Notes under the pieces: generated by a model
Told to the model about the DNA's origin: nothing
The model's database searches: none
What the model saw: only the letters and a program-made list of their open reading frames with translations
Position numbers and translations under genes: made by a program
DNA from: Hysterangium stoloniferum
Taxonomy: Eukaryota > Basidiomycota > Agaricomycetes > Hysterangiales > Hysterangiaceae
Assembly: GCA_015178975.1 (NCBI GenBank)
Contig: WHVD01000205.1
Span: forward strand, 62,001 to 126,000
Length of the DNA: 64,000 nt
Direction of reading: 5' to 3'
Part shown: in pieces, positions 3,588-59,120 of the stretch
Layout of the letters: the number at the start of each line of letters is the position of its first letter
Numbering within the stretch: position 1 is the first letter of the stretch

Positions 3588-4052
3588 TGTTATGACCGTG
3601 TCACAACCCGATGGTCCCCGAGGTTATCGCCACCTATCGACGATTCAAGTCATCGCTCAAGTCCTCACATCAGAAGCCGTCGGTTTCCCAACGCTGACGT
3701 ATGCCTTCACGGTGATCAAACTCCATTTACGCCCCCATCAAAATATACTTGTATTATCTGGTTAAACTCTGATATGTCCCTTTATTATGATGATCCGTTC
3801 TACTCTATGTTTCACATATGTCTATATATACTTGTAACCCTCAGACTATTTCCTTTTCTCATAGCTCCGCTCTCGGTTATCTTATGGCCTCTGAACTAAT
3901 TGTAACCCTCCCGTTCCTAGTCAAGCTTATTTGTCAATACTGTTCTCCACTCTTCTCCTAGTTAGTATTTCCTAGACACCGAATACTTGTATATGAACCC
4001 ATTGTAGTTGTAGTTATTAGGCAATCAAAATATCGACTCAGAATACCCTCTT
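3588..4052 (+). repeat. LTR C, partial
   Basis: Starts tgttatgaccgtg and matches the solo LTR C copies at 7739-8349, 16427-17146 and 57503-58244 up to the point where LTR E begins at 4053. The remaining 3' part of this LTR is not adjacent; a short inverted piece of the same family lies at about 5560-5708. Confidence 0.75.
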
Positions 4053-4596
4053 TGTTAAGTGCCGTGTCGGGAACTTATTCCGGAACTATCGGAAAGTCAC
4101 TGGGAAGTCGGAAACTGTCGGATAGGGTCAGGACATTGGCTTCAGCTTATGTGCTGCACCTCTACGCAAACGCTCAATGTCCTTAATTTCAGAAGTAAAG
4201 CTTACGATGGAAGATATGGATATTCAGAGTTCCGAAGAGTTCCGAATATTGAGCATACAGAAAGACGGGAGGAGGAATAAGAAACTAAGTTGATATCAGA
4301 TCTAAGGTAAAGTACAAATTTGCGGAAACTAATATAAGTCTACTCGTTATTGTACTACAAACTAAGACCATAATAAGACGAAAACGGAAGTGTTCTTAAA
4401 ATGGAAATACAATAAGACATATTAGGGAGACAATATTCCGAAATGGGAATACAACAAACAAACGAGTGAATACTTGTCAATGGACAAATTACCAAATGTG
4501 GAACAAGGGAAGAATGCGGATGATACGGTAACTATGATCTTCCGTAGTCGGAGATTGGAAGTCGGATATTGAAACATCCGGGAATGGGTCGTAACA
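4053..4596 (-). repeat. LTR E, 3' LTR of a truncated element
   Basis: Bounded by tgttaagtgccgtg and ggtcgtaaca. It matches solo copies at 8620-9191 and 45328-45935. The sequence directly to its right (gtacccccctgtta) read on the minus strand is a polypurine tract ending at the LTR, so this is the 3' LTR of a minus-strand element. The shared LTR hairpin motif is at about 4131-4160. Confidence 0.75.
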
Positions 4597-4776
4597 GTAC
4601 CCCCCTGTTAGGCCGAAATCCCATAGAGGCGATTAGGTACTGAGTGATTGAAGCGACGGTTGATTATTATGTGTCATGAAATTTACGCAATTCTGGAGGT
4701 GAGAGTTTCGGCTGATGTTCTGAGTATAAAAACCTCCAAATATTCGAATTAACGTTTTTGTTTCTTTATCCACAAC

Positions 4777-5638
4777 TTGTATGTCGATTCGTCGGCCTCT
4801 GTTCATCACTACCCCAGAAGATTCAGATACCGAAATTGCCGTTCTACAAAAAATGTCGAAGGTCACAGAACTTCAACAAAAACGACAAAGGATGGAGGAG
4901 TTGAAGTGACGACAAGAGGAGGAGGAGAAGGCATTGATGCAGGAGTTGAAAGATGTGGAAGAGGCAGAAAAACGGGAGTTGGAGTGGGTGAAGGCGGAGA
5001 AGGAAGCATGGATCCGGAAAATGGCGGAGGTTCAGAAACAGAAGGAAGAGGCGGAAAAATTACAGCGGGAGTCAGAGGCGGCGAAGAAACGTGAGGAGAT
5101 AAGGGAAGGAAAGGTAAGTGATATCCATAATTTCCATGGTTTCAACCGATAACTATTGGGTACAGCAAAAAGCCGTGTTGGTGGAGGTAGAGGGAGAAGC
5201 TGGACCTTCAAGTCCTAAAGTAAGTGCATCTACAAGAGGCCAGTAATTGACTAACTTCTGAAACAGAAGCCAAAGGTCAAGGCTCCAGAACAGATGGAAG
5301 TGGTCCATGAAAATCCGTGTTATCAATGTTCCATACGGAGTATGACATGTTGGAAACAGAAGGTAAAATGGGGTGGAACTTGCTATCCCTGTGTGGTTCT
5401 TAAACTTCCGTGCACTCTCGCCTCGAAAAGGGTTCCAAAAGGTGAGAAGCCTCAGAGGACTAATGACACGGAAGGTTTGGGAGCAGCCAAAACTGCAGAA
5501 ACTGAGGTACCACAAATGGATAGTATGGGCATGGAGCTCCTCAAGGACACCATTGATGCATTAGTCTTTATCGGGACGGAAGTTATGAAAATGTGGGTCA
5601 GTGTTGGGAAACCGATGGCTTCTGATGTGAGGACTTGA
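4777..5638 (+). CDS. Antisense accessory gene of an LTR-E element: coiled coil plus Zn2Cys6 cluster
   Basis: A plus-strand gene-like unit beside the 3' LTR of a minus-strand element, so antisense to the expected gag-pol. The first part, from an ATG at about 4783, is highly charged and K/E/Q-rich (about 4850-5115), a likely coiled coil. It ends at an intron donor (aag|gtaagt, about 5115). The second part (5294-5638) holds a cysteine array with the exact spacing C-x2-C-x6-C-x10-C-x2-C-x6-C (CYQCSIRSMTC ... CYPCVVLKLPC), which is that of the fungal Zn(II)2Cys6 binuclear cluster. Matching units occur in G2 (37961-38940) and G1 (28541-29381). The last residues run into an inverted LTR C piece, so the natural 3' end is lost and the copy is broken. 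Known for the motif: DNA binding, mostly in transcription factors. Inferred: an element-encoded DNA- or chromatin-binding protein. Function is unknown. Confidence 0.6.
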
Positions 5639-5708
5639 GTGATGACTTGAATCATCGATAGGTGGCGATAACCTCGGGGACTGTCAGGTTGTGACATGGT
5701 CATAACAG
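5560..5708 (-). repeat. LTR C fragment, inverted
   Basis: The reverse complement of the first about 150 bp of LTR C (compare 3588-3740), ending ggtcataaca at 5708. It lies between the antisense gene and a Tc1 end. No matching 5-bp duplication is visible, so the junctions are rearranged. Confidence 0.65.
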
Positions 5709-21593: not shown

Positions 21594-21782
21594 TAGTGTC
21601 GAGTGCCGCACAATCCCTGGCATGCCGGGAGTAGTTCGGCACTCAACGTCCAGCTGAGCATATGTAGGATTCGCACGCCTTGTGTTCTCGTATGACGTCG
21701 CTGTCGATCCTCAGTCCTTTCTGTTTTTTTTCTCATCACTGACTTCTGTTCCTTATCTCTACATAGCTACACAGTTAATTTT
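21594..21782 (+). repeat. Ngaro split direct repeat A1
   Basis: 189 bp, about 95 percent or more identical to A2 (27386-27575). It contains an inverted repeat gagtgccg ... cggcactc (21602-21645). Confidence 0.92.
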
Positions 21783-21803
21783 TTCTTTTCTAAAGCTCAC
21801 TCG

Positions 21804-22460: not shown

Positions 22461-22967
22461 CGGATGCCAGGCTCTGGGCCAGTCATACAGTGCAACCCCC
22501 CCTCCCCCCCTTTATGTTGCTTGCCGCACCTTCTATTCATTATTATACCTTGTGTCAGTGGCCAACCAGCTCATTTTTATTGTATCCATTCACAGCCATT
22601 CCTCGGAAGGTAGAGGAAGCCTTCAGGAACCTACATTACGTCCCTTATACAGCCCTCACTACGGAGGCACAGCGGAAGGCAGAGAGAGGCTTGGAAGAAT
22701 TCACCTTCTCGCCTTCACCTGCACCAATGCACACATGTGCAGCATCTGCTTCGAGCAAGACCACGGAGCAGCAGCCTGCAAGCACCTCTGACCCAAGAAG
22801 GGTCATGACGCCACTTGATCCAATCGAAGCGGCACGTACATTAAGTAAATATGGTATACTCGACAGGTGGGAATACGTTATCTCAGGTTTAATCAATGGC
22901 TTCGATATTGGGGTAAAAGACTGCATATCGCGCACTGCCATTTTTCGAAAATCACAAATCCTCTTCT

Positions 22968-24332
22968 TTGGACATGGACTTTATATACAAGTACATAGCG
23001 AGCGAACAAGGGGCTGGATGCTACTCTCAGGGCTTCACCCCAGTGGAGCTAGAGCAGATCATTGGCCCATTTCAGACCTCCCCACTGGGCCTCATCCCAA
23101 AACCAAACTCCAACACTTACCACCTAATCCAAGACCTTTCCTTTCCCCGGGGAGACCCAGAATACCCTTCCATAAACAGCGGAATAAATTCAGACAACTT
23201 CCCCACAGAGTGGGGCACCTTTGCGGACGCCGCAGCATTAATCTTATCCTTACTGGAGGGCTGCGTAGCGGCCACATTCGACATCTCTGCCACATACAGA
23301 GTGACCCCCATAAGACCAGATCAACAGAACGCTTGCTGCATTTCGTGGGACGGCTTGGTATACGTTGACCGAGCAGTAGCATTTGGCCTGGCCTCCAGCA
23401 CTGGAGTTTTTGGCAGCATTGCAGATATGCTGATAGCGCTGTATCGGAAGGCAGGCTTCGGACGGCTACTCAAATGGGTGGACGACTTCCTAGCCATTCG
23501 CCTTCCAGGTCAGATTTGGACAGAAGAGGACTTCATCACCTTGTCTGCCCAATTCGGGGTCCCATGGAGCAGAAGCAAAACACGACCATTTGCAACAGTG
23601 CAGAAGTACATTGGCTTCCTATGGGACTTGAACTCCAAGACAGTTGCTGTGCCACCAGAGAAACTATGCGCAACCCTCACCTTGATCACGCAGTGGATGA
23701 CAGAGGGCACGCAGTTCTCAGCAAATGAGGTGGAGAAGCTACATGGGAAGTTGGTGCACTTGTCAGCCATCTTCCCATGGATCAGGCCCTTTCTCTGGTC
23801 CATTGCGGCATTCGCAAACGGTTTTCATTCTCGCAGAGCACACCTACTGCCAACCCCATCAGTGCGAGCGGATCTCTCCTGGATCCAGTACATACTCCGG
23901 CATCTGCCAAACGAACTCCCAATTCCATCGCCTGACGTAGTAGACATCGGCTGGTGGGGAGATGCCAGCTCATCCTACGGGATAGGCGTCATCATCGACT
24001 GCCATTGGGCCGCCTGGAAATGGGCTCCCAGTTTCAAAGTTGGCCCTCACTGTGAATGCGATATTGGGTGGGCAGAAGCGGTAGCAGTAGAGCTGGGCCT
24101 GAGATTGGCACTGCAGAATGGCTTGCTGCGCCATCAACTCCCTTCTCATTCAACGTTCTTGGTGCGCTCTGACAACAGTGGGGTAGTTGCCGTTATAAAC
24201 AAGGGTCGTTCCCGCAGCAAGGAGACAAACAAGGTCCTAAAAGAGATTTACCGCCTACTAGCCACCCACCGAATACATTTGAAAGCCATTTACATACCCT
24301 CAAGAGACAACGTGTCGGATGCCCTCTCATGA
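22968..24332 (+). CDS. Ngaro reverse transcriptase-RNase H
   Basis: 454-residue open frame. RT motifs in order: GLIPKPNSNTYHLIQDLS (fingers, about residues 40-57), FDISATYRV (motif A, about 108), AFGLASSTGVF (motif B, about 147) and KWVDDFLAI (motif C with the catalytic D-D, about 180). RNase H follows: WWGDASSSYGIGV (first D, about 330), the E of WAEAVAVELG, SDNSGVVAVINKG, and the final D of SRDNVSDALS at the end. These are DIRS-group variants, not LTR-type pol. The upstream frame (22800-22950, with TPLDPIEAARTLSKYG and GLINGFDIG) belongs to the same protein family but lies in another frame. The product copies element RNA into DNA. Confidence 0.85.
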   Translation: MDMDFIYKYIASEQGAGCYSQGFTPVELEQIIGPFQTSPLGLIPKPNSNTYHLIQDLSFPRGDPEYPSINSGINSDNFPTEWGTFADAAALILSLLEGCVAATFDISATYRVTPIRPDQQNACCISWDGLVYVDRAVAFGLASSTGVFGSIADMLIALYRKAGFGRLLKWVDDFLAIRLPGQIWTEEDFITLSAQFGVPWSRSKTRPFATVQKYIGFLWDLNSKTVAVPPEKLCATLTLITQWMTEGTQFSANEVEKLHGKLVHLSAIFPWIRPFLWSIAAFANGFHSRRAHLLPTPSVRADLSWIQYILRHLPNELPIPSPDVVDIGWWGDASSSYGIGVIIDCHWAAWKWAPSFKVGPHCECDIGWAEAVAVELGLRLALQNGLLRHQLPSHSTFLVRSDNSGVVAVINKGRSRSKETNKVLKEIYRLLATHRIHLKAIYIPSRDNVSDALS

Positions 24333-24584
24333 GGACACATCACCGAATTCCTCAGGGGTTTCCCGAGGGCAAACACCTGTGCCGAGATGGATATTCCCAT
24401 CCATTTGCGTCATCGGATTCAATCATCGTAGCACCGGCATTGCTACCAGCACCATTTAACCGAGCATTGAATATATCATCATCTAATCATGGGCACCTAG
24501 CCCCATCCCCACTGAGACCTCCATGCAAAGCAGCAGAGAGGCTGTTCAAGTGGAGAGGCGTCAACACACCCCCGCCCGCTACTA

Positions 24585-26192
24585 CAGTGGGTCAAAAAAC
24601 TGCCCCAATGTTTGTGCATTTTAGAAAGATTGATATTGTGTGAAGGAATGACATCAGCAAAAATTCTGAAGAATTCACATGATATACTAGCACATGTTGG
24701 CTATCTACCAACTTAAGAAATCATGTGATTCCAATCAAAACTCATTGCTCAATAAATCAAACAAAATAATCACTCATTGGGGCAGTTTTTTGACCCTCTA
24801 TTATTTTACAATCTAATACTTTGTATGACCCCCCTTTGCCTTTAAAACTGCCTGTATCCTCCTAGGCATGCTTTCTATTAGCTTCTGACATGTCTCTGGT
24901 AGTATTTCAGTCCACTCCTTTGCCACCCTGTCCCATAATTTATGTACTCCTTTGGGTGATATGTCATATTGTTGGAGTTTGGCCTTGAGGTGTTGCCAGA
25001 GGTGTTCAATGGGATTTAGATCAGGGGATTGGGCAGGCCGATTCATGGGAATGATGTTATTGTCAGATAACCACTGGTCTGCCTTTTTTGAGGTATGTTT
25101 TGGATCATTGTCCTGTTGGAAGTACCACTTATCCTCAGCCATCTCCAAACTTTCAATGCTCTCCTCCACTCCCTCCTCCAAAATCTCATAATAATGCACT
25201 GTATCCATGTTCTTCTGCACCTCTATCAGCTTCCCCACCCCATTCCAGCCCATACACCCCCAAACCATCAAGTTATTCCCCCCTCCATGTTTGATAGTTG
25301 GTGTGGTGGTCCTGTCTGATACTGGTTCCCCTTGTTGCTTCCAAACATATACCTTCCCATCTGACCCAATCCTATTGATTTTTGTCTCATCAGTCCACAA
25401 CACCCTCTTCCAGTCCTCCATAGTCCAATTTTCATGGTATTGGGCAAACTTTAGATGTTGCTGACGATGAGACCCCTTGAACATAGGGACTTTCTTCTTT
25501 GTTGCTGACCTAAAGCCAGCTTCCTTCAACACATTCCTAACAGTCTGAGGAGTGACAGAGGTAGATATGATGGAATTTATAAATTGGGTGGCTTGGACAG
25601 CATTGTCAAGCTTCCCAGAGCTGATTTAATGGATAAATGACTGTTTATCATAAGGGGAAAGCTTGGAAGAATGGCCACCAGGATGATTTTCCTTATCCCC
25701 CTCTACCTCCCTACTGATCCTGCCAATAGTACCCTTTCCCAGACCAGTCCTAGCTTGAATTTGACACTGGGAATACCCCTCATTGAGGAGAAAAATAACA
25801 GAAGAATGCTTTTCTGCAGAGATGGATTTCATAGTGGTGGTAAGGAGTCAAGGAGATGAATGAACAAAATTCAGCATGCCAAATTGATACAAATAAGGTC
25901 ACATGACATGTTGATGATTCATATGATCCACTCCTACCTTATACTGGTGTGTAATATTGAAAATCAGAGAAAATAATAGAGGGTCAAAAAACTGCCCCAA
26001 TGAGTGATTATTTTGTTTGATTTATTAAGCAATGAGTTTTGATTGGAATCACATGATTTCTTAAGTTGGTAGATAGCCAACATGTTCTAGTATATCATGT
26101 GAATTTTTCAGAATTTTCGCTGATGTCATTCCTTCACACAGTATCAATCTTTCTAAAATGCACAAACATTGGGGCAGTTTTTTGACCCACTG
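24585..26192 (-). mobile_element. Tc1-like DNA transposon, full length
   Basis: 1608 bp flanked by the TA target duplication (24583-24584 and 26193-26194). It has 223-bp terminal inverted repeats (24585-24807 and 25970-26192), and each TIR itself begins and ends with inverted copies of gtcaaaaaactgccccaatg, so that motif occurs four times. A single transposase gene lies on the minus strand. It is inserted in the Ngaro element between RT-RH and recombinase. The TIRs look almost identical to each other, so the insertion is fairly recent. Confidence 0.95.
24813..25832 (-). CDS. Tc1-family transposase (DD34E), one in-frame stop
   Basis: Read from the ATG at 25832 to the stop at 24813 the frame spans 339 codons, the usual length of Tc1 transposases. 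A TAA at 25626-25628 interrupts it after residue 68. The N-terminal helix-turn-helix region (SSVIFLLNEGYSQCQIQART) would bind the TIRs. The catalytic triad is D in LWTDETK, D in QQDNDPKHTS, and E in SPDLNPIEHLW, with 34 residues between the last two (DD34E). A G-rich box (HGGGNNLMVWGC) also fits the family. The protein would cut at TA sites and paste the element. Apart from the one stop the gene appears complete, so this copy probably makes no active enzyme. Confidence 0.93.
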
Positions 26193-27234
26193 TATACAGC
26201 ACCCGGTCCTCCAATTAATCGCAACGATCACGTCAGAGGCCTCTTTAAAAGAACCCAAAGCCTACAGTGCCGGCCTACGAAAATTTCACATCTTCTGTGA
26301 CATCTTCTCGATTGCAGAAGTGGACAGACTACCGGCGTCCTTCCTAGTGATCCATTCCTTTGCTCTCTGGGCAGCTGCAGACCCATCATTTCTCGGAAAT
26401 GGCCTGGCTGCTGGAACCAGATTCGAGATAATCTCCGTCAGCGTGACAAGGAAATACCTTTCATCAATCAGGGCATGGCATATAGCACAAGGCTGGCCAC
26501 CACCGCTGTCCGACGAGGAACGCACAAAAATTGAATGGTCACTACGAGGATTGGAGAACTTACAAGGCATGGCACGAAAACGACCCCCACGACCCCCAGT
26601 ACAATTGAGGATGTTATTCGCACTGAAGTCAATCCTGGACCTGAGCGATGCATTCAATGCATGCATTTGGGCCGTGGCTTCATGCGCCTTCTGGGGACTA
26701 ATGCGTTTTGGTGAGGTTACCGTGACATCCAGACCGCACTTTGACACCACCAAACACCTAAAACGAAAGGATGTTCTAATTAGTCGTGACAATGATGGAA
26801 AACGCTACGCACGTTTAGACCTGCCATCCACAAAGACAGCCAAAGTCGGAGAGATTCAGGCAGTATTTATTATGGACCAACAGGGAGTCTGCCCAATTGA
26901 TGCCTTGATCAATTTAGCCAAGGTTGTCCCAGCAGGGCCGGACGATCCTTTATTTTGCTGGCGGGACAACAAGGGAGAGGTCAGACCAATAGTTAAAAAG
27001 GCAGCACTCCACCGGATTAATTCAGTCCTCCAGGCTTGTGGATGGGGAACAACCTTTGGCCACTCTTTCCGCATTGGCGGCACCTCCTTCTTCTTAGCGC
27101 AAGGAGTTGATCCCGAGATAGTATGACTAGCGGGCAGATGGAAATCCTTAGCATACGAAACATACATAAGGGCGTTCGAGCAAATTGCATCACAGCACAT
27201 ATCGAACCTGTCCGCCAGAAATGCAGCTGCCTAG
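26193..27234 (+). pseudogene. Ngaro tyrosine recombinase
   Basis: The main open stretch is 26158-27126, with a short related tail to about 27234. The N-terminal SAM-like part is about 26240-26570. The catalytic part contains the first Arg in LMRFGEV (about 26702), the box HSFRIGGTSF (H-x-x-R, about 27061), then the W in AGRWKS and the nucleophile Tyr in AYETYIRAF (about 27135-27175). The family cuts and rejoins a circular DNA intermediate into the target. Tc1 lies immediately upstream (ends 26192), so the native start region is disrupted. The copy is broken. Confidence 0.82.
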
Positions 27235-27286
27235 GTTGGGTGAGCGGTGTAGTCTCGCCGCGGTAGTAGGCAGGCCTTTTATGGGT

Positions 27287-27385
27287 GAGCGGCGAGTCTT
27301 CCCACACACACGCGGAGAGCTAATGCTCTTCCTCTACCCAACCACTCAGCTCTTCACTGTCTAGTCTGTAATAGTCAATGCTGGA
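27287..27385 (+). repeat. Ngaro split direct repeat B1
   Basis: 99 bp, matching B2 (27709-27806) with few changes. It directly abuts A2. Confidence 0.88.
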
Positions 27386-27575
27386 TAGTGTCGAGTGCCG
27401 CACGATCCCTGGCGTGCCGGGAGTAGTTCGGCACTCAACGTCCAGCTGAGCATATGTAGGATTCGCACACCTTGTGTTCTCGTACGACGTCACTGTCGAT
27501 CCTCAGTCCTTTCCATTTTTTTTTCTCATCACTGACTTCTGTTCCTTATCTCTACATAGCTACACAGTTAATTTT
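27386..27575 (+). repeat. Ngaro split direct repeat A2
   Basis: 190 bp copy of A1, starting tagtgtcgagtgccg and ending cagttaatttt. Confidence 0.92.
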
Positions 27576-27708
27576 ACCCACCCACCCTAGCCCTTTCTTT
27601 AGACAGCGGCAGTAATCCAGTATCAATATTTTGATGTGATATATTTACCGTAGTTAGCGGATTATACAGAACGAGAGCTGTTAATGCGTTATGATTACCT
27701 GCCCTCCC

Positions 27709-27806
27709 GAGCAGCGAGTCTTCCCACGCACACGCGGAGAGCTAACGCTCTTCCTCTACCCAACCACTCAGCTCTTCACTGTCTAGTCCGTAATAGTCGA
27801 CGCTGG
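27709..27806 (+). repeat. Ngaro split direct repeat B2
   Basis: 98 bp copy of B1. It ends gacgctgg at the junction with G1 (ctccagactgc). Confidence 0.88.
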
Positions 27807-28540
27807 ACTCCAGACTGCTATAAAGTCCACCCAAGAGCAATATCAACATTCAGCAGACAAACACCAAATCCCACCACCCAACTTCAAGATTGGCAATCAT
27901 GTTTTTGTCAAAGCTCAATTCTTCCGGACTACCTATCCATCAAAAAAGCTTGCTGAAAAATATTTAGGTCTGTTTGAAATTATCGCACAAGTAGGTTCAG
28001 TTTCTTGGACCCTACGGCTTCCAGATAGCATGCACGTGGTACATCCGGTATTTCATGTTTCTATGTTAGAACCTTGTACTGCTAACACTATCCCGGATCA
28101 CGTGCAATCTCCACCTCCTCTAGTCATTATTGACGGAGAACCTGAGTTTTAAATCTCACAAATTTTAGATTCGAAAATTGACAAGTGTTGACATGCTTGT
28201 AAACTGCTTTACTTGGTCAAGTGGGCAGGTTACAAGGGCACCAATGAAGAAACCTCATGGATTTTGGCCACAGAACTCAGTAATGCCATGGAAATTGTTA
28301 CTGACTTTCATACAGCTTACCTGCTCAAACCCAGACCACTATCATCTCTCTGACCACACTCTGCAGACCACATGTTATGTTTGGACTCATTCTCATTATT
28401 CCCTGTCACCCTATGTCTCTCTGTGCTTTTACAGGTTCTGACATGTTTTCAAGTCCTTAAGTGGATTTTCCACAGACTTTGATTTTTATGTTTTCATGCT
28501 TTACTTTATTTTCAAAAATTATTATCAAGTTTTATTATTT

Positions 28541-29381
28541 CTATTCATCTACATTTATGGGGCTGTCCTTTTTCCCCGCCTCAGCTTTCTCCACCTCCTT
28601 CATCTCCTCAGGGAGCTCCGCTATCTCCAAAGGCACCCCATCCTTGTCCGACCCCTCATCCTTGGAACTCCCGATCTGTGGCTCCTCATAGGCATAGCTG
28701 CTGAACTCCACAAGGAATTTGTAATATTCCATGCAGAGCCTGTGGAGTTCATTCGCCACTACAATCTGGACCTTGTTGCTCTTCCGGAGCAACTTGTTTT
28801 GGGCCTCTATGCCCTCAGCAATCCGTCCCAAGACTTCATCCAATCCAGACATCCCATCTGACCCGCTAATGTCCTGTGCCATGGACCCCGTGGGCTGCTC
28901 GTGAACGAGCAAGCACCTCGCCTTGAGATGTGTGCACTGGTAGCAGCCAGGTCCCTGCCCGGACTTCTGATTGCATTCGGTGTTCCAGTCATTACAACAG
29001 AACACCGCAGGTCATTCCTTGTTGGTAGGTGGACTGGTGCTGCCTTCCTTGCCTTCTGTTGATTTGGTTAGTTCCCCGGACCTCCCACAGATCTGACACT
29101 TACCTTTTGGGGGTTCTCCAGCTCCCCCTCAGACTCCGATTCAACCTCTGTCACCTTGCACTGAAAATGCCAAGTCAGTCAAAAGAAAAAAAAATGACAA
29201 GTTGAACTATAGGACTTACTTTGCCCATGGCAACCACGGCCCTCTCCACAGCCACCCAGGCTTTCTCTGCAGCAACCCACACAGCCTCCTCTTCATCCTT
29301 CTTCCTTTTCTCCTCAGCCGCTTTCTCCGCAGCCAATGCCGCCTGGTACTCCCTGTCCAGGGGCTCCTTGACCTCCCTCAC
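28541..29381 (-). CDS. Antisense accessory gene in G1 (Zn2Cys6-like), broken copy
   Basis: Minus-strand gene-like unit between the G1 chromodomain and its 3' LTR, so antisense to pol. Part one (29175-29381) is an A/E/K-rich helix ending at a conserved donor-like gtaagt. Part two (28541-29005) carries the cysteine region, with the second half-site CYQCTHLKARC clear, then a helical segment LDEVLGRIAEGIEAQNKLLR and an acidic tail ending SPINVDE. These match the G2 unit (37961-38940) over most of their length. The copy is broken. That the two copies keep the same protein-like pattern suggests past selection on this frame. Confidence 0.6.
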
Positions 29382-29731
29382 CTCCTTTTCTGCTTCTTCA
29401 CATTGTCAGCGCTGTTCCTCTCGCTGCACCAGAATCTGGGCTGCACTGAGAGGTGCCTGATATGGAGTGCCCGTGGAGGGCCCGGCAGTCAGCATTGGTC
29501 TTCACAGTATCAGTTTTGGTCCCATAGTGATGATGGGGGTAATAAAGAAGAAGAAATTTCATTTTTTCAAATTTTTATATAGGCTCATCACATCTGAACC
29601 TTACCTTCCAGATCATGTAACTCTTTGCCACATATGTGTAACCAACATGACTTTTGACACATGTGTGTAGCCAACAAGAACCTTATCAAGGTCTAGAGCC
29701 TCTTTGGGACTTTGGCATAAAGGGAGGGTAC

Positions 29732-30573
29732 TGTTATGACCGGAATTTCTGCCAGACTCCGGGCACTAACTTATATGCACCAATTGTCAGTTTACCAGAA
29801 TTCCTGCCAGACTCCCTACATCAGACTTGTCCATGTTCGACTTCATTACATCGTGTATCAGTCACTGGAATACCCACCGAACTCCATCCCTGTCTATGTC
29901 CGACTCTGTCCCACACATCAGTCACTGGACCCCGCTCAGAAAACTCGTCATCTCTCTAACTGAGCCCTGTTTCTGTTTTAGTCAAATGACCTGTCACGAT
30001 TCAGACTCCACTCCCGCTCCGTTTCCCGTTATGGTTTATGATTTGTCATGATTCAGACTCCACTCCATTCCATCCCATTCCTAACACCAAATTTGGTGTT
30101 TACTTATCCCATTTTATGTTTTGCTAGTTTCATTTCATCATTACTGGATTTGGTATGTTATTCATTCCACAGTCTATATAGTCTGGCAGATGTTGTACAT
30201 ACAATCCAGTCAGAAAATCAGCTTAGATTCTCCCCAGTAATCTAGTACATTTTCCACTCTAAACTCCTCTCTGAATTACACCACTCTCACTGGTTGGAGC
30301 CCACGGGCTCTGACACATCTATCTCTTAACCTCCAATGCATCTATCTCTTAGCCTCCGACTTATTTATCTTGACTCCCCGACCTCTCGACCCATAACCTC
30401 TAACCTATGACCCCTTGACCCACGAACTCCACCCAGACTCCCCGGGTTTCCCATCCACCTGTTTGAAATTGGACAACACAATCTCATGAGGGTGCAGCCT
30501 ATAAGCTGAAGCCAAGTCCTACCGGATTCCCCACAGGTTTCTCCAGAAACCCACCGTGTACACACCCTTAACA
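29732..30573 (+). repeat. LTR B, 3' LTR of G1
   Basis: 842 bp, tgttatgaccgg ... cacccttaaca, directly preceded by the polypurine tract aaagggagggtac. Same length as the left LTR of G2 but heavily CpG-depleted. Confidence 0.88.
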
Positions 30574-36909: not shown

Positions 36910-37751
36910 TGTTAGGATACACACTCAGGCCGGGTTTCCGGAGAAACCCGCGGGATATCCGGTAGGACTTGGCTTCAGCTTATAGGCTGCGCCCTCGCTA
37001 GATCGTGTTGTCCAATTTCAGACAGGCGGACGGGAATCCCGGGGAGTCCGGGCGGGGGTTCGTGGGTCGTGAGTCGTAGGTCGTGAGTCGAGAGTCGTGA
37101 ATCGAGATAGTCGAGAGTCGTGAATCGAGATAGTCGAGAGAGATAGATGCGCCGGAGCCCGTGGGCTCCGACTAGTGCGAGCGGTCTGATAAGAGTAGGG
37201 TTTTAAAGAGGAAAATGTATTAGATTACTGGGGGGAATCTAAGCTAATTTTCTGACTGGATTGTATGTACAACATCTGCCAGTTTATATAGACCGTGGAA
37301 TGCATGACATACCGAATCCAGTAATAATGAGACGAAACGAGCAAAACATAGAACGGGAATAGTAAACACCAAATTGGTGTTAGGAATAGGACGGAACGGA
37401 GCGGAGTCCGAATTGTGACAAAGCATAACCCATAACGGGAAATGGAGCGGGAGCGGAGTCCTAAATCGTGACAGGTCATTTGACTAAAATGGGAACGGGG
37501 CTCGATTAGAGCGGTGACGGGATTCTAAGCGGGTCCGGTGACTGATGCGTGGGACGAAGACGGACATAGACAGAGACGGGGTCCGGGGGAAGTCCGGTGA
37601 CTGATATGTGTCTTAATGAGGTCGAACGTAACGAGTCTTGACGTAACGGAGTCCGGGCGGGAAATCCTATAAACAGACGATTGGTGCTTGTAGCGCGTGG
37701 GGGCGTACGAGTTAGTGCCCGGAGTCCGGCGGGATTTGCCCGGTCGTAACA
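36910..37751 (-). repeat. G2 3' LTR (family B)
   Basis: 842 bp, tgttaggatac ... ggtcgtaaca, with a 23-bp direct repeat (unit gtcgagagtcgtgaatcgagata) present twice at about 37086-37136. Confidence 0.95.
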
Positions 37752-37960
37752 GTATCCTCCCTTTATGCCGAAGTCCCAAAGAGGCTCTAGACCTAAATAA
37801 GGTTCTTGTCGGCTACGCGCATGTGTCAAAAGTCATGTCGGTTACACGTATGTGTCAAAGAGTCATGTGATCTGGAAGGTAAGGTTCAAACGCGACGAGC
37901 CTATATAAAAAATTGAAAAATAGAAATTTCTTCTTCTTTATTACCCCCATCTTCGTCACT

Positions 37961-38940
37961 ATGGGACCAAAACCAACACCACGCAAGCCAATGCCGACAG
38001 CAGGGCCCTCCACGGGCACTCCGTATCGGGCGCCGTGGACGGCGGCCCAATTGTTGGCACGGCGAGAAGAGCAGCGCCAGCTTCCTGAAGCAGCAGAGAG
38101 AGAGGCGAGGGAGGCTGAGGAGGCCCTGGACAAAGAGTACCAGGAAGCATTGGCCGCGGAGGAAGAGGCCGCAAAGGAGAGGGAACGTGAGGCGGAGGAG
38201 GCTGCGCGAGTGGCCGTGGAGAACGCCCAGGTGGCTGCGGAGAAAGCCCGGTTGGCCGCGGAGAGGGCCGCCATTGTTGCGGGAAAAGTAAGTCCCAAAT
38301 TCACTTGTCGATTTTTTACTGACTTGTGATTTTCAGTGCAAAGCGACAGAGGTGGAGTCGGAGTCCGAGGGGGAGCCAGAGAGCCCCCAAAAGGTAGGCC
38401 TCATGTCCATGGAATACCCGCGGAGACTGACCAACTCAACAGAAGGCAAGGAAGGCGGCGCCAGTCCGTCTTCCGACGCGGAACGAGCCGCGGTGTTCCG
38501 GTTGCAACGACCGGAACACGGAATGCAACCGAAAGGCCGGCCGGGGGCCGGGATGTTATCAATGTGCACACCTCAAGGCGAGGTGCTCGCTTGTGCACAA
38601 GCAGGCCACGGGATCCGGGGCGCGAGACATAAGCGGGACGGACGGGTTGTCCGGGTTGGACGAGGTCCTTGGACGGATCGCCGAGGGCATCGAGGCCCAA
38701 AACGAGTTGCTCCGGAAGAGCAACAAAGTCCAAATTGTGGTGGCAAAGGAGCTGTCCGGACTCCGCGAGGAGTTTTGGAAGTTCCTGGCGGAGTATGGCG
38801 GCTATGTCTTTGAAGAGCCGCAAGTTGGGAGTTCCGAGGATGCCGGATCGGATGAGGACGGGGTTGCCGCAGAGGTCGCGGAGCTCCCTGAGGAGGTAGC
38901 TGAGGCAGAGGGGAAAAAACATAGTCCCATAAATGTAGAC
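37961..38940 (+). CDS. G2 antisense accessory gene: coiled coil and Zn2Cys6 cluster
   Basis: Plus-strand gene-like unit between pol and the 3' LTR of a minus-strand element. First segment from ATG 37961 (MGPKPTPRKPMPTAG) is a long A/E/K/R helix to about 38285, ending at donor gtaagt (38288). A short acidic segment (EVESESEGEPESP) follows after an acceptor near 38336 and ends at another donor-like gtaggc. The last segment (about 38440-38940) encodes C-x2-C-x6-C-x9-C-x2-C-x6-C (ending CYQCAHLKARC), then a helix LDEVLGRIAEGIEAQNELLR and an acidic tail ending SPINVD. That cysteine spacing is the fungal Zn2Cys6 signature. A TATA-like ctatataaaa at about 37901 lies 60 bp upstream of the ATG. Known of the family: nuclear DNA binding. 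Inferred: element-encoded regulator or targeting factor. I know no established precedent. Confidence 0.7.
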
Positions 38941-39146
38941 TGAAAAGTAATATAGAAATAAAAGTAATTGAACATAAAAGTAAAGCGTGAAAAACATAAA
39001 AAATAAAAGTCAAAGCCAAAGTCCGCGGAGAATCCGCTTGAAGACTTGACCAGACATGTTAGAACCTGTAAAAGCAAAGAGAGACATAGGGCGACAGGGA
39101 AAAATGAAAATGAGTCCAAACGTAACACGGGGTCCGCGGAGTGCGG

Positions 39147-42100
39147 TCAGAGAGACGATAATGGTCCAGGTTTGAGTGGGTAAGCTGTATGAAAGTCAGT
39201 AACAATTTCCGTGGCATTACCGAGTTCCGTGGCCAAAATCCATGAGGTTTCTTCATCAGTGCCCTCGTAACCCGCCCACTTGACCAAGTAAAGCAGTTTA
39301 CAAGTGCGTCGACGCTTGTCAATTTTTGAATCTAAAATCTGAGAGATTTCAAACTCGGGTTCTCCGTCAATGACGACAGGAGGAGGCGGAGATTGCACGT
39401 GATCCGGGATAGTGTTAGCAGTACAAGGTTCTAGCATAGAGACATGAAATACCGGGTGTACCGCGCGCATGCTATCCGGAAGCCGTAGAGTCCAAGAAAC
39501 TGAACCTACTTGTGCGATAATTTCAAAGGGACCTAAATATTTTTCAGCAAGCTTCTTTGATGGACGGGTAGTCCGGAAGAATTGAGCTTTGACATAAACA
39601 CGGTCGCCAATCTTGAAGTTTGGTGGCGGGATCCGGTGTTTGTCCGCTGAATGTTGGTATTGCTCTTGGGCGGACAATATTGCAGTCCGGAGTTCCTCGT
39701 GGAGCTCGTGGAGGTCCGTGGTGAACTCTTGAGCACGAACAGAGGCGAGATTTCGTTCTGGATGTACTGTAATATTTGGATTATATCCTTTATTTGCAAA
39801 GAACGGGGAAACGCCAGTAGTGGCCGAGGGTGCATTGTTGTAAGCAAACTCTGCAAGTGGTAACAAGGTTTTCCAATTGTCCTGTTGATAGTTGCAATAT
39901 ACGCGGAGGTATTGTTCCAATGTCTGGTTGACGCGTTCGGTTTGTCCGTCACCTTCCGGGTGATGTCCGGACGTGAAATGTAATGTCATGTCCAAGGATT
40001 TTCCGAGGGATCTAAAGAAGTGAGACACGAACTCTGATCCTCGATCGGAAGTCACGTGGGACGGAACTCCGTGCTTGGAAAATTCGTGGATAATAAAAAG
40101 TTCCGCTAACTGCACGGACGTAATTGTATCATAAGTAGGGATGAATATACCTTGTTTTGAGAATCTGTCAACAACGACTAGGATAGCGGAAAAGCCTTCA
40201 GAATCCGGTAGGTGTTCAATGAAATCCATAGATATAGAATTCCACGGGTGTTCCGGTACCGGGAGTTGTTTCAAAAGGCCATATGGCTTGTGTCGCTGAG
40301 ATTTCGAGTGGGGACAAGTAGTGCAAGATTTACAATAGTGCTTAACGAATCCACGGAGTCCGGGCCAAGTATATTCTCTTCTTATTAATGATAGAGTCTT
40401 GTTGTACCCGAAATGTCCTGAGAGTGGATGATCATGTTTGTATTGAAGGATCCTGAGGCGGAGGCCGCCGGAGTCCGGTACATAGATACGATCGTCAAGT
40501 CTAATGAAACCATGTTGATCAAGAGACCACCGAGGTTGATCGGGGTCCACGGGATTGTCCAGATGAGCTTTAGTAACTGGGTCTAGCGGAATTGCCGATA
40601 GAATATCTTGATGTAACTTTTCGATATCCATAATGATAATTCCACGGACAATGGGATTGACGAGGAAAGTTGTGCGGACCGATGCGGTAAGTTGTTGATT
40701 CGTGAAGATAGGTTTCAGGTTGTGCGGATTTACCGTTGCATAGTCGTTGCTCCCCTCTTTAGGATAGACGTCCCATCGTCTAGTTAAAGCGTCGGGTTTG
40801 CCGCCGAGACGGCCGGGTCGAAAACGGATAATCATGTTGAAGGCGGAGAGATATTCAGACCAGTGGGCCTGCCGACGGGTCAAGAGTTTTGTGGTAGAAA
40901 AGTATTCCAGGTTTTTGTGATCTGTTACAACGTCAATAGGAGCTCCTGAACCTTCCAAATAGTGTCGCCATGCTTTGAAAGCTGAAAAGATTGCCAGAAG
41001 TTCTTTATCATGAACGTCGTAGTTGAGCTCTGCTCCGGTAAAAGTCCGGGACAGAAAAGCCACGGGGTGAACTTCTCCGTCGGAGTCCTGGATAGAGAGA
41101 ATGGCTCCAAGTGCATAGTCGGAGGCGTCCGTTTCAACAATGAGCGGGAAGTCCGGTTTCCAATGCGACAGAATAGGAGCTGTGGAAAAAGAATTTTTTA
41201 AAAGATTGAAAGCTTTTTGACACTTATCGTTAAAGTTCCACGGAGTACCCTTACGCGTAAGACGGGTAAGGGGTACCGTGATGTCGGAATATCCACGGAT
41301 AAAACGTCTATAAAAATTGGCAAAGCCGAGGAAGGATTGGATATCTTTAACTTTTCGGGGTTCGGGCCAGTCTTTGATGACTTGCACTTTAGTTTCGTCC
41401 ATGCGGAGTCCATCGGGTCCCATCATGAAACCTAGGTATTCCACGGAGTCCGTGTCAAAAGTACATTTTTTACCATTTGCGAATAAACCATGTTGTCTGA
41501 GCCTCCGGAGAACCTCACGGACTTGTTTGTCGTGTTCCGCGGGATTCTCGGAGTAGATAAGAATGTCGTCCAAGTAAACAATGACGCATACATCGAGCAT
41601 GTCGGAGAAAATGTCGTTGATAAAACACTGAAAAACAGACGGGGCATTAGTGAGTCCAAAAGGGATGACCAACCACTCGAAGGCCCCATAGCGGGTTCTA
41701 AAAGTGGTTTTCCATTCATCGCCCGCGGCAATCCGGACCAAATGATAGGCATGCTTGAGATCTATTTTGGTGTAAATCCGGGCATTCTGCGGAGCATCGA
41801 GCAGGTCAGATATAAGTGGGAGTGGATATTTGTCCTTTTTGGTGACAGCATTGAGACCTCTAAAATCAACACATAGTCGAAGGGATCCATCCTTTTTTCT
41901 GACAAACAAAACAGGTGCTCCAAAAGGAGACTTTGAGGGTCGAATAAAACCTATGGACAAATGTTCATCCAGGAAATCACGGATTGCGGATAGTTCCGTG
42001 GACGAAAGCGGGTAAATATGTCCTAGGGGTGGCTGGGCGCCATCTTCAAGATCGATTTTTAAGTTGTATTCTCTGTGAGGCGGAAGCCGGTCAGCTTTTC

Positions 42101-43004
42101 GCTTGCTAAAAACATCCGCGAAGTCATGGTATTTCTCCGGGACACCTTCTAGGTCAGCAGCTTGCTCAGATTCGGATACTGGGGTTGAGAAACGTCCAGT
42201 TGCTTCATCAATTTTTAAGTTGATAGTGAACGCCTGGGACCCATCCATTTTTGAAGCCCTAATAAAAGCTGCAGCATTAATCAGAGAAATGGACGGAGGT
42301 GCCGTGGGTTCCGGGGAAGCTGTAGGTGCCGTAGGGATCACAGGAGTCCTCGAGACTGCAGGTGCCGGGAAGGCCATGGGTGCCGTGGAGGCCAAGACAG
42401 GCGCAGTTTCCTCAGTCGCCGCGGGAGTTCGGAATGTTATACTGTTAGCTATCCAGTCAATCAACGGATTGTAGCGGGTAAGCCAGTTATGTCCTAGAAC
42501 CACCGAGCAACTTGAGTCTAACTGGGTCACATAGAAAGTGACCAATTGAGATGTTCCATAAGGGAAACTGATGGGTAAATCACAAGCTTGGGTAACAACC
42601 GAATTACTTGTGCCATCGAAGAGGCGGAGAGCGATGGGATTTATCGAATAAGTTGACAAAGAATTTTTTTGCGTGAATTTTGTATCTAAAAAACAATGAG
42701 TCGAGCCGGAATCTATGAGAGCTGAAAAAACGAATTTCGGAAGCATATTAGACATAAGTTTAACGAAAAATGAATCAGAATGTGAAAGAGCGGATGCGTT
42801 GAGGCGAGTGAACTCTTGAATGCGCGGAGAGGCAACGCAACCCCTAACCCGCGCGGAGTCCGCGGGGTTGCTTACTCTTTTTTCGAATCGGCAGCCGGTT
42901 TGTCCTTCGACGGGGTTTCCGTGGAGGCCTTGGCTGATCGACCCTTTGAAGAGTTTGCTTTTGCCAGCGGACATTCCGGGACTCGATGACTGGGTTTCCC
43001 ACAC
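39147..43004 (-). CDS. G2 pol polyprotein (PR-RT-RH-IN-chromodomain)
   Basis: 1285-residue open frame overlapping the end of gag by about 130 bp in the -1 frame, as is known for fungal gypsy elements that use frameshifting. Domains: retropepsin ALIDSGSTHCFL (about residue 95); RT with VYLDDILIYS (about 478); RNase H beginning VETDASDYALGAIL (about 625); integrase zinc region H-x-H ... C-x2-C (HPLSGHFGYNKTLS ... CKSCTTC, about 855-895); core with D in SMDFIEHL, D in TSDRGSEF, E in GDGQTERVNQ (about 930-1020); and chromodomain LLYLVKWAGYEGTDEETSW near the C-terminus, which in chromoviruses binds modified histone H3 and steers insertion to heterochromatin. Confidence 0.95.
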   Translation of the reverse strand: MWETQSSSPGMSAGKSKLFKGSISQGLHGNPVEGQTGCRFEKRVSNPADSARVRGCVASPRIQEFTRLNASALSHSDSFFVKLMSNMLPKFVFSALIDSGSTHCFLDTKFTQKNSLSTYSINPIALRLFDGTSNSVVTQACDLPISFPYGTSQLVTFYVTQLDSSCSVVLGHNWLTRYNPLIDWIANSITFRTPAATEETAPVLASTAPMAFPAPAVSRTPVIPTAPTASPEPTAPPSISLINAAAFIRASKMDGSQAFTINLKIDEATGRFSTPVSESEQAADLEGVPEKYHDFADVFSKRKADRLPPHREYNLKIDLEDGAQPPLGHIYPLSSTELSAIRDFLDEHLSIGFIRPSKSPFGAPVLFVRKKDGSLRLCVDFRGLNAVTKKDKYPLPLISDLLDAPQNARIYTKIDLKHAYHLVRIAAGDEWKTTFRTRYGAFEWLVIPFGLTNAPSVFQCFINDIFSDMLDVCVIVYLDDILIYSENPAEHDKQVREVLRRLRQHGLFANGKKCTFDTDSVEYLGFMMGPDGLRMDETKVQVIKDWPEPRKVKDIQSFLGFANFYRRFIRGYSDITVPLTRLTRKGTPWNFNDKCQKAFNLLKNSFSTAPILSHWKPDFPLIVETDASDYALGAILSIQDSDGEVHPVAFLSRTFTGAELNYDVHDKELLAIFSAFKAWRHYLEGSGAPIDVVTDHKNLEYFSTTKLLTRRQAHWSEYLSAFNMIIRFRPGRLGGKPDALTRRWDVYPKEGSNDYATVNPHNLKPIFTNQQLTASVRTTFLVNPIVRGIIIMDIEKLHQDILSAIPLDPVTKAHLDNPVDPDQPRWSLDQHGFIRLDDRIYVPDSGGLRLRILQYKHDHPLSGHFGYNKTLSLIRREYTWPGLRGFVKHYCKSCTTCPHSKSQRHKPYGLLKQLPVPEHPWNSISMDFIEHLPDSEGFSAILVVVDRFSKQGIFIPTYDTITSVQLAELFIIHEFSKHGVPSHVTSDRGSEFVSHFFRSLGKSLDMTLHFTSGHHPEGDGQTERVNQTLEQYLRVYCNYQQDNWKTLLPLAEFAYNNAPSATTGVSPFFANKGYNPNITVHPERNLASVRAQEFTTDLHELHEELRTAILSAQEQYQHSADKHRIPPPNFKIGDRVYVKAQFFRTTRPSKKLAEKYLGPFEIIAQVGSVSWTLRLPDSMRAVHPVFHVSMLEPCTANTIPDHVQSPPPPVVIDGEPEFEISQILDSKIDKRRRTCKLLYLVKWAGYEGTDEETSWILATELGNATEIVTDFHTAYPLKPGPLSSL

Positions 43005-44164
43005 AAGAGACAGAGGTTGTTGTCCATACGACGTTGTCTTTCTTGTGGAGTCAATTTGCCATCAGGTCCGAGTTTGCCTGAGAGGTCGGGTTTTCCGGCT
43101 TGCTTGCCGGACTGTTGACCCTTGTTGTTGTCCTTATTGTCCTTATTGTTGTTGTTGTTGTTTGAAGACTTTTTATCGTTCTTCTTGTCGGATTGCGTGG
43201 AGTTCTGGTTGCTGGTTGACGAATTGGTGTTATTGTTTTTGTCCTTGGACTTATTTATTTTGTCCACGGATGTCTCGCGGGCAACTTCCGCGCGACGTTC
43301 CCAATAACGTGCGTCTGCGTTTTGAGCTTTGAGGCGCATACGGGACAGGGTTTTTGGCTTGCCATCTTCTCCTTTTGAGACTTCGTCTTTAAGGCGGGAC
43401 GGCAGACCGGCGTAGAATTGGTGGCGGAGAGCGGGATCGCCCCACTGACAACGAGCTGCAAGATTATTGAATTGGACGATGTAGTCCGTGATGCGCTGCG
43501 TGTCCTTCATACGAAGATTTGTGAGACTATTCTCGGCTTCTCCTGTCGGGTCATACGGGCCGAAGTTGGTTTCAAGCTCCTCAACAAAAGCTTCCCAATT
43601 TTCAAGCCAGAGCGGCTCTTCCTCGGTAATCCCGCTAAAAGCCGGTTCGAACCATTTCAACGCGGATCCCGACAAATATGAAAGTGCGTAGTTGACTTTT
43701 CGGGAGTCCGTGGAGAATGCAGCGGCGCGATCGCGGAAATTGAAGCGACATTGCATGAGGAAAGTAGAGAGTTTGTTTGGGTTGGAACCCGTGAAGGGTT
43801 CCGGAGCATTGACTTTTGACCGTGGAGGTTCTTGTTCCTTTCTTTTTCGTTCTTCTAGCAGGTGCGTCATGAATTTATCTATAGTACCTGCTAAAAACTC
43901 AGAAGTAGGATCCCTCGTGTTTGGTCGTTGAAAAGGCGGAGGATTTTCAGGAGGGATTTCGACACCTTTGCCCTTGTCGGGGGCCACGGAATCGTCCTCG
44001 CGCTCGGATTCATCCAGGTCTTCCGGGATTTCTTCGATGCGGGCTTCTTCCATGGGTTCCGACTGGTTCGCAAGCGTCTGACTGGTATACAGAGTTAACG
44101 GGGAATGAAGAGTCGACGGTCCAGGCATTGATGACTGTGCGCGTGTACTTCTTCTTGGTGGCAT
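42872..44164 (-). CDS. G2 gag
   Basis: 430 residues from an ATG 37 bp inside the 5' LTR boundary. N-terminal basic MPPRRSTRAQ, acidic linker, gag core (residues about 115-280, including FLMQCRFNFRDR and YALSYLSGSALKWFEP, typical of chromovirus capsid), an N/K/D-rich low-complexity linker (SNQNSTQSDKKNDKKSSNNN) and one zinc knuckle CLLCGKPSHRVPEC near residue 390. Forms virus-like particles that package element RNA. Confidence 0.95.
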   Translation of the reverse strand: MPPRRSTRAQSSMPGPSTLHSPLTLYTSQTLANQSEPMEEARIEEIPEDLDESEREDDSVAPDKGKGVEIPPENPPPFQRPNTRDPTSEFLAGTIDKFMTHLLEERKRKEQEPPRSKVNAPEPFTGSNPNKLSTFLMQCRFNFRDRAAAFSTDSRKVNYALSYLSGSALKWFEPAFSGITEEEPLWLENWEAFVEELETNFGPYDPTGEAENSLTNLRMKDTQRITDYIVQFNNLAARCQWGDPALRHQFYAGLPSRLKDEVSKGEDGKPKTLSRMRLKAQNADARYWERRAEVARETSVDKINKSKDKNNNTNSSTSNQNSTQSDKKNDKKSSNNNNNNKDNKDNNKGQQSGKQAGKPDLSGKLGPDGKLTPQERQRRMDNNLCLLCGKPSHRVPECPLAKANSSKGRSAKASTETPSKDKPAADSKKE

Positions 44165-44200
44165 AATGAAAACAATCTGCGAGTATTAGTCAGAAAATAC

Positions 44201-45019
44201 TGTTAGGATACACACTCAGGCCGGGTTTCCGGAGAAACCCGCGGGATATCTGGTAGGACTTGGCTTCAGCTTATAGGCTGCGCCCTCGCTAGATCGTGTT
44301 GTCCAATTTCAGACAGGCGGACGGGAATCCCGGGGAGTCCGGGCGGGGGTTCGTGGGTCGTGAGTCGTAGGTCGTGAGTCGAGAGTCGTGAATCGAGATA
44401 GTCGAGAGAGATAGATGCGCCAGAGCCCGTGGGCTCCGACTAGTGCGAGCGGTCTGATAAGAGTAGGGTTTTAGAGAGGAAAATGTATTAGATTACTGGG
44501 GGGAATCTAAGCTAATTTTCTGACTGGATTGTATGTACAACATCTGCCAGTTTATATAGACCGTGGAATGCATGACATACCGAATCCAGTAATAATGAGA
44601 CGAAACGAGCAAAACATAGAACGGGAATAGTAAACACCAAATTGGTGTTAGGAATGGGACGGAACGGAGCGGAGTCCGAATCGTGACAAAGCATAACCCA
44701 TAACGGGAAACGGAGCGGGAGCGGAGTCCTAAATCGTGACAGGTCATTTGACTAAAACGGGAACGGGGCTCGATTAGAGCGGTGACGGGATTCTAAGCGG
44801 GTCCGGTGACTGATGCGTGGGACGAAGACGGACATAGACAGAGACGGGGTCCGGGGGAAGTCCGGTGACTGATATGTGTCTTAATGAGGTCGAACGTAAC
44901 GAGTCTTGACGTAACGGAGTCCGGGCGGGAAATCCTATAAACAGACGATTGGTGCTTGTAGCGCGTGGGGGCGTACGAGTTAGTGCCCGGAGTCCGGCGG
45001 GATTTGCCCGGTCGTAACA
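44201..45019 (-). repeat. G2 5' LTR (family B)
   Basis: 819 bp. On the minus strand it has a TATA box (tatataaa, 44551-44558) 33 bp upstream of agtcagaaaat (44515-44525), the candidate transcript start. The hairpin motif shared by several LTR families is at 44256-44283. Confidence 0.93.
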
Positions 45020-45202
45020 GCACACCTCAACAACTTGCAAAGTGGGCGTGTTGGGGTACATACATTGTATTGCAAGCCGTTGACGTGTTTTATCTCAATG
45101 CTCGGCTATTTTGTACTTTACAGTAGCTTAGTCATCACATGTATTTCAGTAGGGACTTTGTCATCCCCTCACCCACATGAAATCCCGTTGCATATCCTTA
45201 CA

Positions 45203-59094: not shown

Positions 59095-59120
59095 AGTGCC
59101 CCCCAGGTTGAAGAGCTATG

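Follow-up and report, generated by a model that had tools for sequence, protein, structure and literature searches.

The window analysed here is a 64,000-nucleotide stretch of the genome of Hysterangium stoloniferum, a fungus described in PMC7550596 as ectomycorrhizal. It holds an LTR retrotransposon, G2, with a gene-like unit on the strand opposite gag-pol, next to the 3' LTR. Is this unit a protein gene that selection maintains, and if so, what kind of protein does it encode and what could that protein do for the element? The original prediction, made from the window alone, had placed such units in G2, in a second element (G1) and in an element of another family (E), and had read their cysteine pattern as a fungal Zn(II)2Cys6 cluster. 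Genome-wide searches were run against the H. stoloniferum assembly (111 Mb, 554 contigs).

Architecture of the G2 element and its antisense gene

G2 runs along the minus strand from its 5' LTR to its 3' LTR (Table 1) and encodes gag, protease, reverse transcriptase, RNase H, integrase and chromodomain in that order, which identifies it as a Ty3/gypsy chromodomain element. The small number of differences between its two LTRs indicates a young copy. The best G2 matches in the assembly often lie within a few kilobases of contig ends, and several of the fetched loci are shortened, a pattern that assembly breaks at young copies would produce.

The plus-strand gene occupies the interval that separates pol from the 3' LTR, antisense to gag-pol. 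It has three exons and two GT-AG introns, and the flanking pol and LTR agree with the unit as originally predicted. The predicted protein has 294 residues, a pI of 5.06 and a mass of ∼32 kDa. Its charge is unevenly distributed, with a net +10 in the cysteine region and a net -11 in the tail, and the composition of exon 1 suggests a putative N-terminal helix.

Candidate signals for an independent transcript flank the coding region. A TATATAA or TATAAA word is present in 27 of 28 G2 leaders and in all 18 aligned leaders from the 20 E loci. At the other end, the AATAAA that directly follows the G2 stop codon has a counterpart at most ∼10 bases from the stop in three of the four E loci inspected (L011, L015 and L019, not L018).

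Table 1. Features of the G2 element and of related antisense genes in the window. pN/pS was computed over all pairs of 27 G2 copies.
Feature	Position	Strand	Basis or remark
LTR of E copy	4051..4597	-	repeat arms and alignments; outer end approximate
TATAAA of E antisense gene	4725..4730	+	sequence
E-family antisense gene copy	4781..5639	+	TGA in exon 1, shortened exon 3
G1 antisense gene copy, broken	28545..29525	-	read by eye
3' LTR of G2	36910..37752	-	96.4% identical to 44201-45020; 7 mismatches and 1 gap in an 843-column alignment
Polypurine tract adjoining 3' LTR of G2	37753..37769	- (purine-rich strand)	direct sequence reading
TATA-like box of G2 antisense gene, between polypurine tract and ATG	37902..37909	+	sequence; putative
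Exon 1 of G2 antisense gene, ATG at 37961	37961..38287	+	charged, net -8 over residues 26-109; pN/pS 0.370
Intron 1 of G2 antisense gene	38288..38336	+	GTAAGT...TTTCAG; GT-AG in 27/27 copies
Exon 2 of G2 antisense gene, acidic	38337..38393	+	pN/pS 0.095; 57 bases, few changes
Intron 2 of G2 antisense gene	38394..38442	+	GTAGGC...CAACAG; GT-AG in 27/27 copies
202-codon open frame opposite exon 3	38401..39009	-	non-gene by substitutions; spectrum-corrected omega 2.0-2.2 over exon-3 overlap
Exon 3 and stop of G2 antisense gene: basic cysteine region, helix, acidic tail	38443..38943	+	pN/pS 0.237; in-frame stops in 0/27 copies
Six-cysteine region of G2, C-x2-C-x6-C-x9-C-x2-C-x6-C	38494..38586	+	six Cys codons kept in 27/27 G2 copies
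AATAAA directly after stop codon of G2 antisense gene	38957..38962	+	sequence
pol of G2: protease, RT, RNase H, integrase, SH3-like, chromodomain	39147..43061	-	nine Pfam families above curated cut-offs
gag of G2	42872..44185	-	Pfam Retrotrans_gag and Ty3_capsid
5' LTR of G2	44201..45020	-	LTR alignment

Distribution across two families

The gene is repeated many times in the assembly. Searches with exon 3 scored the best 150 of 1366 candidates for G2 and the best 150 of 794 for E as matches; because only the best candidates were scored, these counts are lower bounds that lean towards intact copies. Among these best-scored matches, the matched part is free of stops in 112 of 150 for G2 and 121 of 150 for E (table count). 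The copies were located through the antisense gene itself and picked for their likeness to those in the window, a choice biased towards intact genes.

The placement of the gene is highly consistent. The C-terminus of pol lies antisense and just downstream of it in 28/28 G2 loci and 19/20 E loci, and an LTR lies upstream in 28/28 and 18/20, respectively. The upstream LTRs of these 18 E loci comprise 16 E LTRs and 2 G2 LTRs (L024, L027). These locus sets include the two copies of the window itself, as L001 and L009, and L008 repeats L029. The G2/E gene thus has the arrangement termed aORF-3R, antisense and between pol and the 3' LTR. At one E locus, L015, there is also a 61% match to the middle of pol on the other strand, which probably belongs to another element.

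The E and G1 copies in the window itself are in poorer condition. The E copy has exons at 4781-5113, 5166-5219 and 5267-5639 and a six-cysteine region at 5318-5413, with a middle spacing of x10, one residue longer than in G2. The proposal of the same antisense unit in E stands for 19 of the 20 fetched loci, the sole miss being the window copy, which has no adjacent pol, a TGA in exon 1 and a shortened exon 3. The G1 copy, placed by the original prediction at 28541-29381, exists and starts at about 29525, and its gene is broken: read by eye, it carries two stop codons in exon 1 and loses its frame inside the cysteine region. The differences between G1 (about 17518-30326) and G2 seem by eye to fall largely at CpG, as after methylation-linked decay.

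Despite their divergence, the two families share the exon plan of the gene. Both introns are in phase 0, after ..GK and after ..PK, matching in the G2 and E proteins as the original prediction had held for the intron position. GT-AG ends are kept at both introns in all 27 G2 and all 16 E copies, with no intron lost in the 43 aligned copies. The G2 set leaves out L001 (the window copy) and L008 (the same place as L029); the E set, 16 of 20 loci, leaves out L009 (the window copy) and L012, L020 and L021, in which the gene alignment is incomplete. All three exons are free of stops and frameshifts in 22/27 G2 copies and in 2/16 E copies, so most of the fetched E copies are dead.

Purifying selection on the antisense frame

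Substitution patterns among the fetched copies point to a protein product. CpG sites change often in these copies, and a spectrum-corrected omega was therefore used, in which observed changes are compared with the expectation after moving each change to other sites that match it in base and CpG surroundings. In the exons of G2, CpG sites hold over half of the differences between copies.

For G2 exon 3 the corrected omega is 0.275 over all sites and 0.220 without CpG, with 0 nonsense changes observed against 11.1 expected. Exon 1 is weakly constrained, given an omega of 0.722 (0.506 without CpG) and nonsense changes near expectation (5 against 5.8). In E, the values for exons 1 to 3 are 0.504, 0.102 and 0.479 over all sites and 0.288, 0.054 and 0.414 without CpG; exon 1 has 19 nonsense changes where 29.0 are expected, and exon 3 has 19 where 32.7 are expected. 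The original prediction had supposed constraint in two families and proposed a dN/dS comparison of copies: selection among the fetched copies is purifying, not neutral, with exon 3 at 0.22-0.28 in G2 and 0.41-0.48 in E.

Comparisons between copies are non-independent, and omega is given here with no P value attached. A pair-free test on sites, which ignores CpG effects, was applied to exon 3. Of the 144 polymorphic sites in G2, 78 are third positions (P=3e-7); in E the share is 120 of 234 (P=2e-8). The expectation is one third.

The pol gene of the same copies served as a control, using 14 G2 loci with nearly full-length pol, each compared with the window copy. Corrected omega (all sites / without CpG) is 0.323/0.215 for exon 3 and 0.435/0.221 for pol. 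An internal stop codon is present in 12 of these 14 pol sequences. Exon 3 is thus conserved much as other element proteins are. The amount of amino-acid change in G2 exon 3 is 1.1-3.2 times that in pol, and at least twofold in 10 of the 14 loci. Exon 3 also has the higher density of synonymous differences, with 200 in 14 x 498 bases where pol has 651 in 14 x 3915 bases, which hints at recombination or a deeper ancestry of the 3' part of G2.

The cysteines follow the same pattern as the splice sites. All six Cys codons are kept in 27/27 G2 and 16/16 E copies, as the proposed check of spacing across the family called for; two E copies have a stop codon between the first two. The combination of codon-level selection, kept splice sites and kept cysteines makes it nearly certain that the antisense gene is a real, selected protein gene, rather than a chance open reading frame or mere antisense RNA.

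Divergence between G2 and E

G2 and E are sister lineages, with pol C-termini about 76-84% identical in protein (7 E loci). Exon 3 is only 26-36% identical between them (three E loci compared). The two exon-3 profiles nevertheless align across the cysteine region, with all six cysteines matched (hhalign P 2.4e-6, probability 88.9).

At the DNA level, the similarity between the families ends at the pol stop codon and resumes at the polypurine tract; the segment 37742-37785 of G2 is 84-87% identical to three E loci compared. The intervening cassette (37786-39144) gives no notable G2/E DNA alignment, and its flanks, the pol end and the polypurine tract, align at about 76% and 85%. The antisense module may have been exchanged between elements, or may simply evolve fast. 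A further reading of this pattern, which we regard as doubtful, is that each family possesses a separate transcription factor of the zinc-cluster type, fitted to that family's LTR, so that gene and LTR would diverge or be exchanged as a unit while pol stays alike, and the sisters would be separately self-regulated. If true, such matched cassettes would amount to a self/non-self control system built by selfish elements.

The gene also extends beyond these two families. P0003, a predicted protein of 227 residues from other sequence sources (lgn, ena), retains all six cysteines and is 41% identical to E over 188 columns, and its best match in the assembly is 44% identical; this relative indicates that the gene occurs outside G2 and E. 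A search of the assembly with P0003 found more open places outside the E list (e.g., C464:400376-400999 and C43:114504-115127), which probably represent more subfamilies. A scan of viral contigs found no P0003 relatives. Protein searches returned two matches for the whole G2 protein (8000 candidates scored), one for a restricted region and three for a mixed G2/E alignment. These searches depend on shared exact words, which makes them weak here, and they retrieved no named protein from another fungus.

A six-cysteine region with zinc-cluster-like spacing

The Zn(II)2Cys6 binuclear cluster has the spacing C-x2-C-x6-C-x5-12-C-x2-C-x6-8-C. The antisense proteins fall within this range, with a middle spacing of x9 in G2, x10 in E and x10 in P0003 (read by eye for P0003). 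In a six-frame scan of the window the pattern matched only twice, in G2 and in E, exactly where the full spacing had been noticed, and it matched in none of 40 dinucleotide-Markov random windows.

The profile evidence does not follow the spacing. Against the Pfam Zn_clus cut-off of 21 bits (PF00172), the G2 fragment scored 14.0, the whole G2 protein 7.8 and the E fragment 10.9. The HMM check named in the original prediction thus went against its assignment to the Zn(II)2Cys6 cluster, and membership of PF00172 was rejected, the cut-off having been tested and missed. A canonical Zn(II)2Cys6 protein has a basic loop, R-x-R-K-x-K, between its second and third cysteines. This loop is missing from the antisense proteins, which have NDRNTE in G2, mostly SIRSMT or SIRNMT in E, and SERSII in P0003.

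Structural models add little to this picture. AF2 models (4 sequences) have mean pLDDT values of 54.8 and 44.5, with block means of 33-55 over the cysteine region. They place a helix of moderate confidence at residues 67-121 of exon 3 and are poor elsewhere. Profile searches of the PDB found no relative, yielding weak helical matches alone (best E 0.078 and 0.16), and no bZIP match was found among Pfam families up to E=10.

The antisense protein is best described as zinc-cluster-like at most, although it may still work like a Zn(II)2Cys6 protein. Judged from sequence, its six-cysteine region probably holds zinc, and binding of the protein to nucleic acid is reasonably likely. The region lends itself to direct tests of zinc and DNA binding.

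A possible regulator of its own element

The combination of a basic six-cysteine region, a helix and an acidic tail suggests a nuclear regulator bound to nucleic acid. That this regulator is DNA-bound and controls transcription of its own element is the likeliest function considered, though evenly poised in our judgement; analogy is what links binding of nucleic acid to control over gag-pol transcription. In such a scheme, the integrated DNA copy would be the template of the antisense transcript, which would start from a TATA promoter belonging to the gene and situated between the polypurine tract and the ATG, and would then be spliced. The ∼32 kDa product would combine a charged N-terminus, a six-cysteine region binding nucleic acid, a helix with the potential for pairing and an acidic tail. 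It would enter the nucleus, bind element DNA in the LTR or internally and adjust gag-pol transcription, like HBZ or the proposed Retand proteins. The introns would be reversed on the genomic RNA, which cannot splice them in that orientation, and they would therefore be kept through reverse transcription. They would also serve as a built-in mark of expression from integrated DNA.

CGG-type motifs were examined as candidate binding sites and are to be read as a lead, not as evidence. The word TCCGG/CCGGA exceeds its shuffled expectation in the G2 3' LTR (11 against 3.0), the antisense gene (9 against 3.7) and pol (28 against 9.0); it is absent from the 209-base leader of the antisense gene and rarer than expected at 58000-64000 of the window (3 against 12.0). 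For CCACGG, pol has 15 occurrences where synonymous shuffles have 2.4, and none of 500 shuffles reaches 15; the occurrences fall in more than one reading frame. The gag gene shows no enrichment of TCCGG (6 against 6.1) and an enrichment of CCACGG (5 against 0.5). The shorter words TCCG/CGGA are abundant in the G2 coding sequence (39147-44185) and LTR (36910-37752). Across copies, retention of the CpGs within these words barely exceeds that of other CpGs (0.87 against 0.86), so CpG retention does not explain the enrichment.

The same basic region (+10) could bind RNA or DNA. In an alternative that we consider somewhat improbable, the protein would act after transcription and have no control over it, serving as a chaperone or nuclear-import factor that binds element RNA, cDNA or the pre-integration complex. 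The sub-threshold Zn_clus score speaks for such a role. Gag and integrase normally serve the post-transcription steps, however, and the acidic tail (-11) is more like that of a transcription factor. On the side of this alternative, import and accessory functions are among those that PMC7264820 mentions as proposed for plant antisense ORF products.

It is quite unlikely that the transcript itself is what matters, acting as a brake at the RNA level or giving rise to small RNAs that target the genomic RNA at its 3' end. The convergent unit, with its TATA-like box and AATAAA, would overlap the end of the genomic RNA, and transposon-derived antisense lncRNAs are reported in a fungus in PMC10648671. 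Selection nevertheless tracks the antisense codons, with splice sites and six cysteines kept, and the coding part stops at 38943, before pol (39147). As for the original suggestion of an antisense brake on pol, a pure brake leaves protein-level selection unexplained. Antisense RNA may still act in addition to the protein.

Chance capture of a host gene fragment that is now drifting is very unlikely. LTR elements are known to transduce genes (PMC7264820), and introns would arrive with captured genomic DNA; against this, the gene occupies the same place in two sister families and is selected like pol. Of the 62 places in the assembly with a Zn_clus match (E<=0.1), none overlaps the listed element copies when compared by eye, which leaves the gene with no evident host donor of the Zn_clus kind.

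The notion that the 202-codon minus-strand frame is the true gene and the plus-strand pattern its shadow can be practically discarded, since that frame, open in G2 and stop-free in 19/27 copies over the exon-3 overlap, is refuted as a gene by its substitutions (pN/pS 1.53 over the 27 G2 copies, omega about 2.0-2.2), and the three minus frames of E hold 3 to 11 stops per copy. In G2, one minus frame that shares its third positions with the plus frame also looks constrained (omega 0.30), but it has 2 to 4 stops in every copy.

Comparison with known systems

The original prediction knew of no described system of this kind; antisense genes before the 3' LTR are in fact known from plants and from Boty. 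In the Zn(II)2Cys6 proteins, the likeness to the G2/E product lies in the cysteine spacing and in the pairing of a basic cysteine region with an acidic segment, whereas the G2/E proteins score below the Pfam cut-off, lack the basic loop between cysteines 2 and 3 and have their conserved lysine in the second half. HBZ is a bZIP protein made from a spliced antisense transcript. Both HBZ and the G2/E product are encoded antisense at the 3' end of an LTR element, but the latter has no bZIP match. PMC11963269 names HBZ of HTLV-1 as nuclear and antisense-encoded. In HTLV the antisense promoter is located within the 3' LTR (PMC7264820), unlike the TATA-like box of G2, which lies in the internal region.

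The closest parallels in layout are retrotransposons. According to the account in PMC7264820, antisense genes precede the 3' LTR in the plant elements Grande, RIRE2, Retand and PvRetro13 and in Boty of Botrytis. The same account describes these ORFs as conserved like other element proteins and their function as not known, and gives gene23 of Grande its own promoter and a nuclear product. For Retand, antisense ORFs of the TRP28 type are reported in 97% of clusters, with DNA binding predicted and a regulatory role proposed (PMC11963269). The plant aORF-3R genes (Grande gene23, RIRE2, Retand TRP28) share with G2/E the antisense position between pol and the 3' LTR. They differ in that G2/E is fungal, encodes a six-cysteine protein where the plant products are of TRP28 or unknown type, and has two conserved introns. 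Among fungi, an antisense gene, brtn, is named in the title of Zhao et al. 2011 for Boty-like retrotransposons of Botrytis cinerea. With brtn, compared by description only, G2/E shares an antisense gene in a chromodomain-bearing fungal LTR element, the host of Boty being an ascomycete. The Boty gag-pol includes a chromodomain as described in PMC4227169.

Among the titles and abstract openings listed by searches of open-licence PubMed Central articles, none describes a six-cysteine or Zn2Cys6 antisense gene in an LTR retrotransposon. The layout and the regulatory idea are thus already known, and the type of protein appears to be new; the distinguishing features are the basidiomycete host, the six-cysteine protein and the conserved introns. 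The G2/E gene is fungal, compact and intron-bearing, occupies at least 150 scored places per family and is selected much as pol is. If it does regulate its own element, it would be a counterpart, in a cellular element, of the retroviral antisense regulators.
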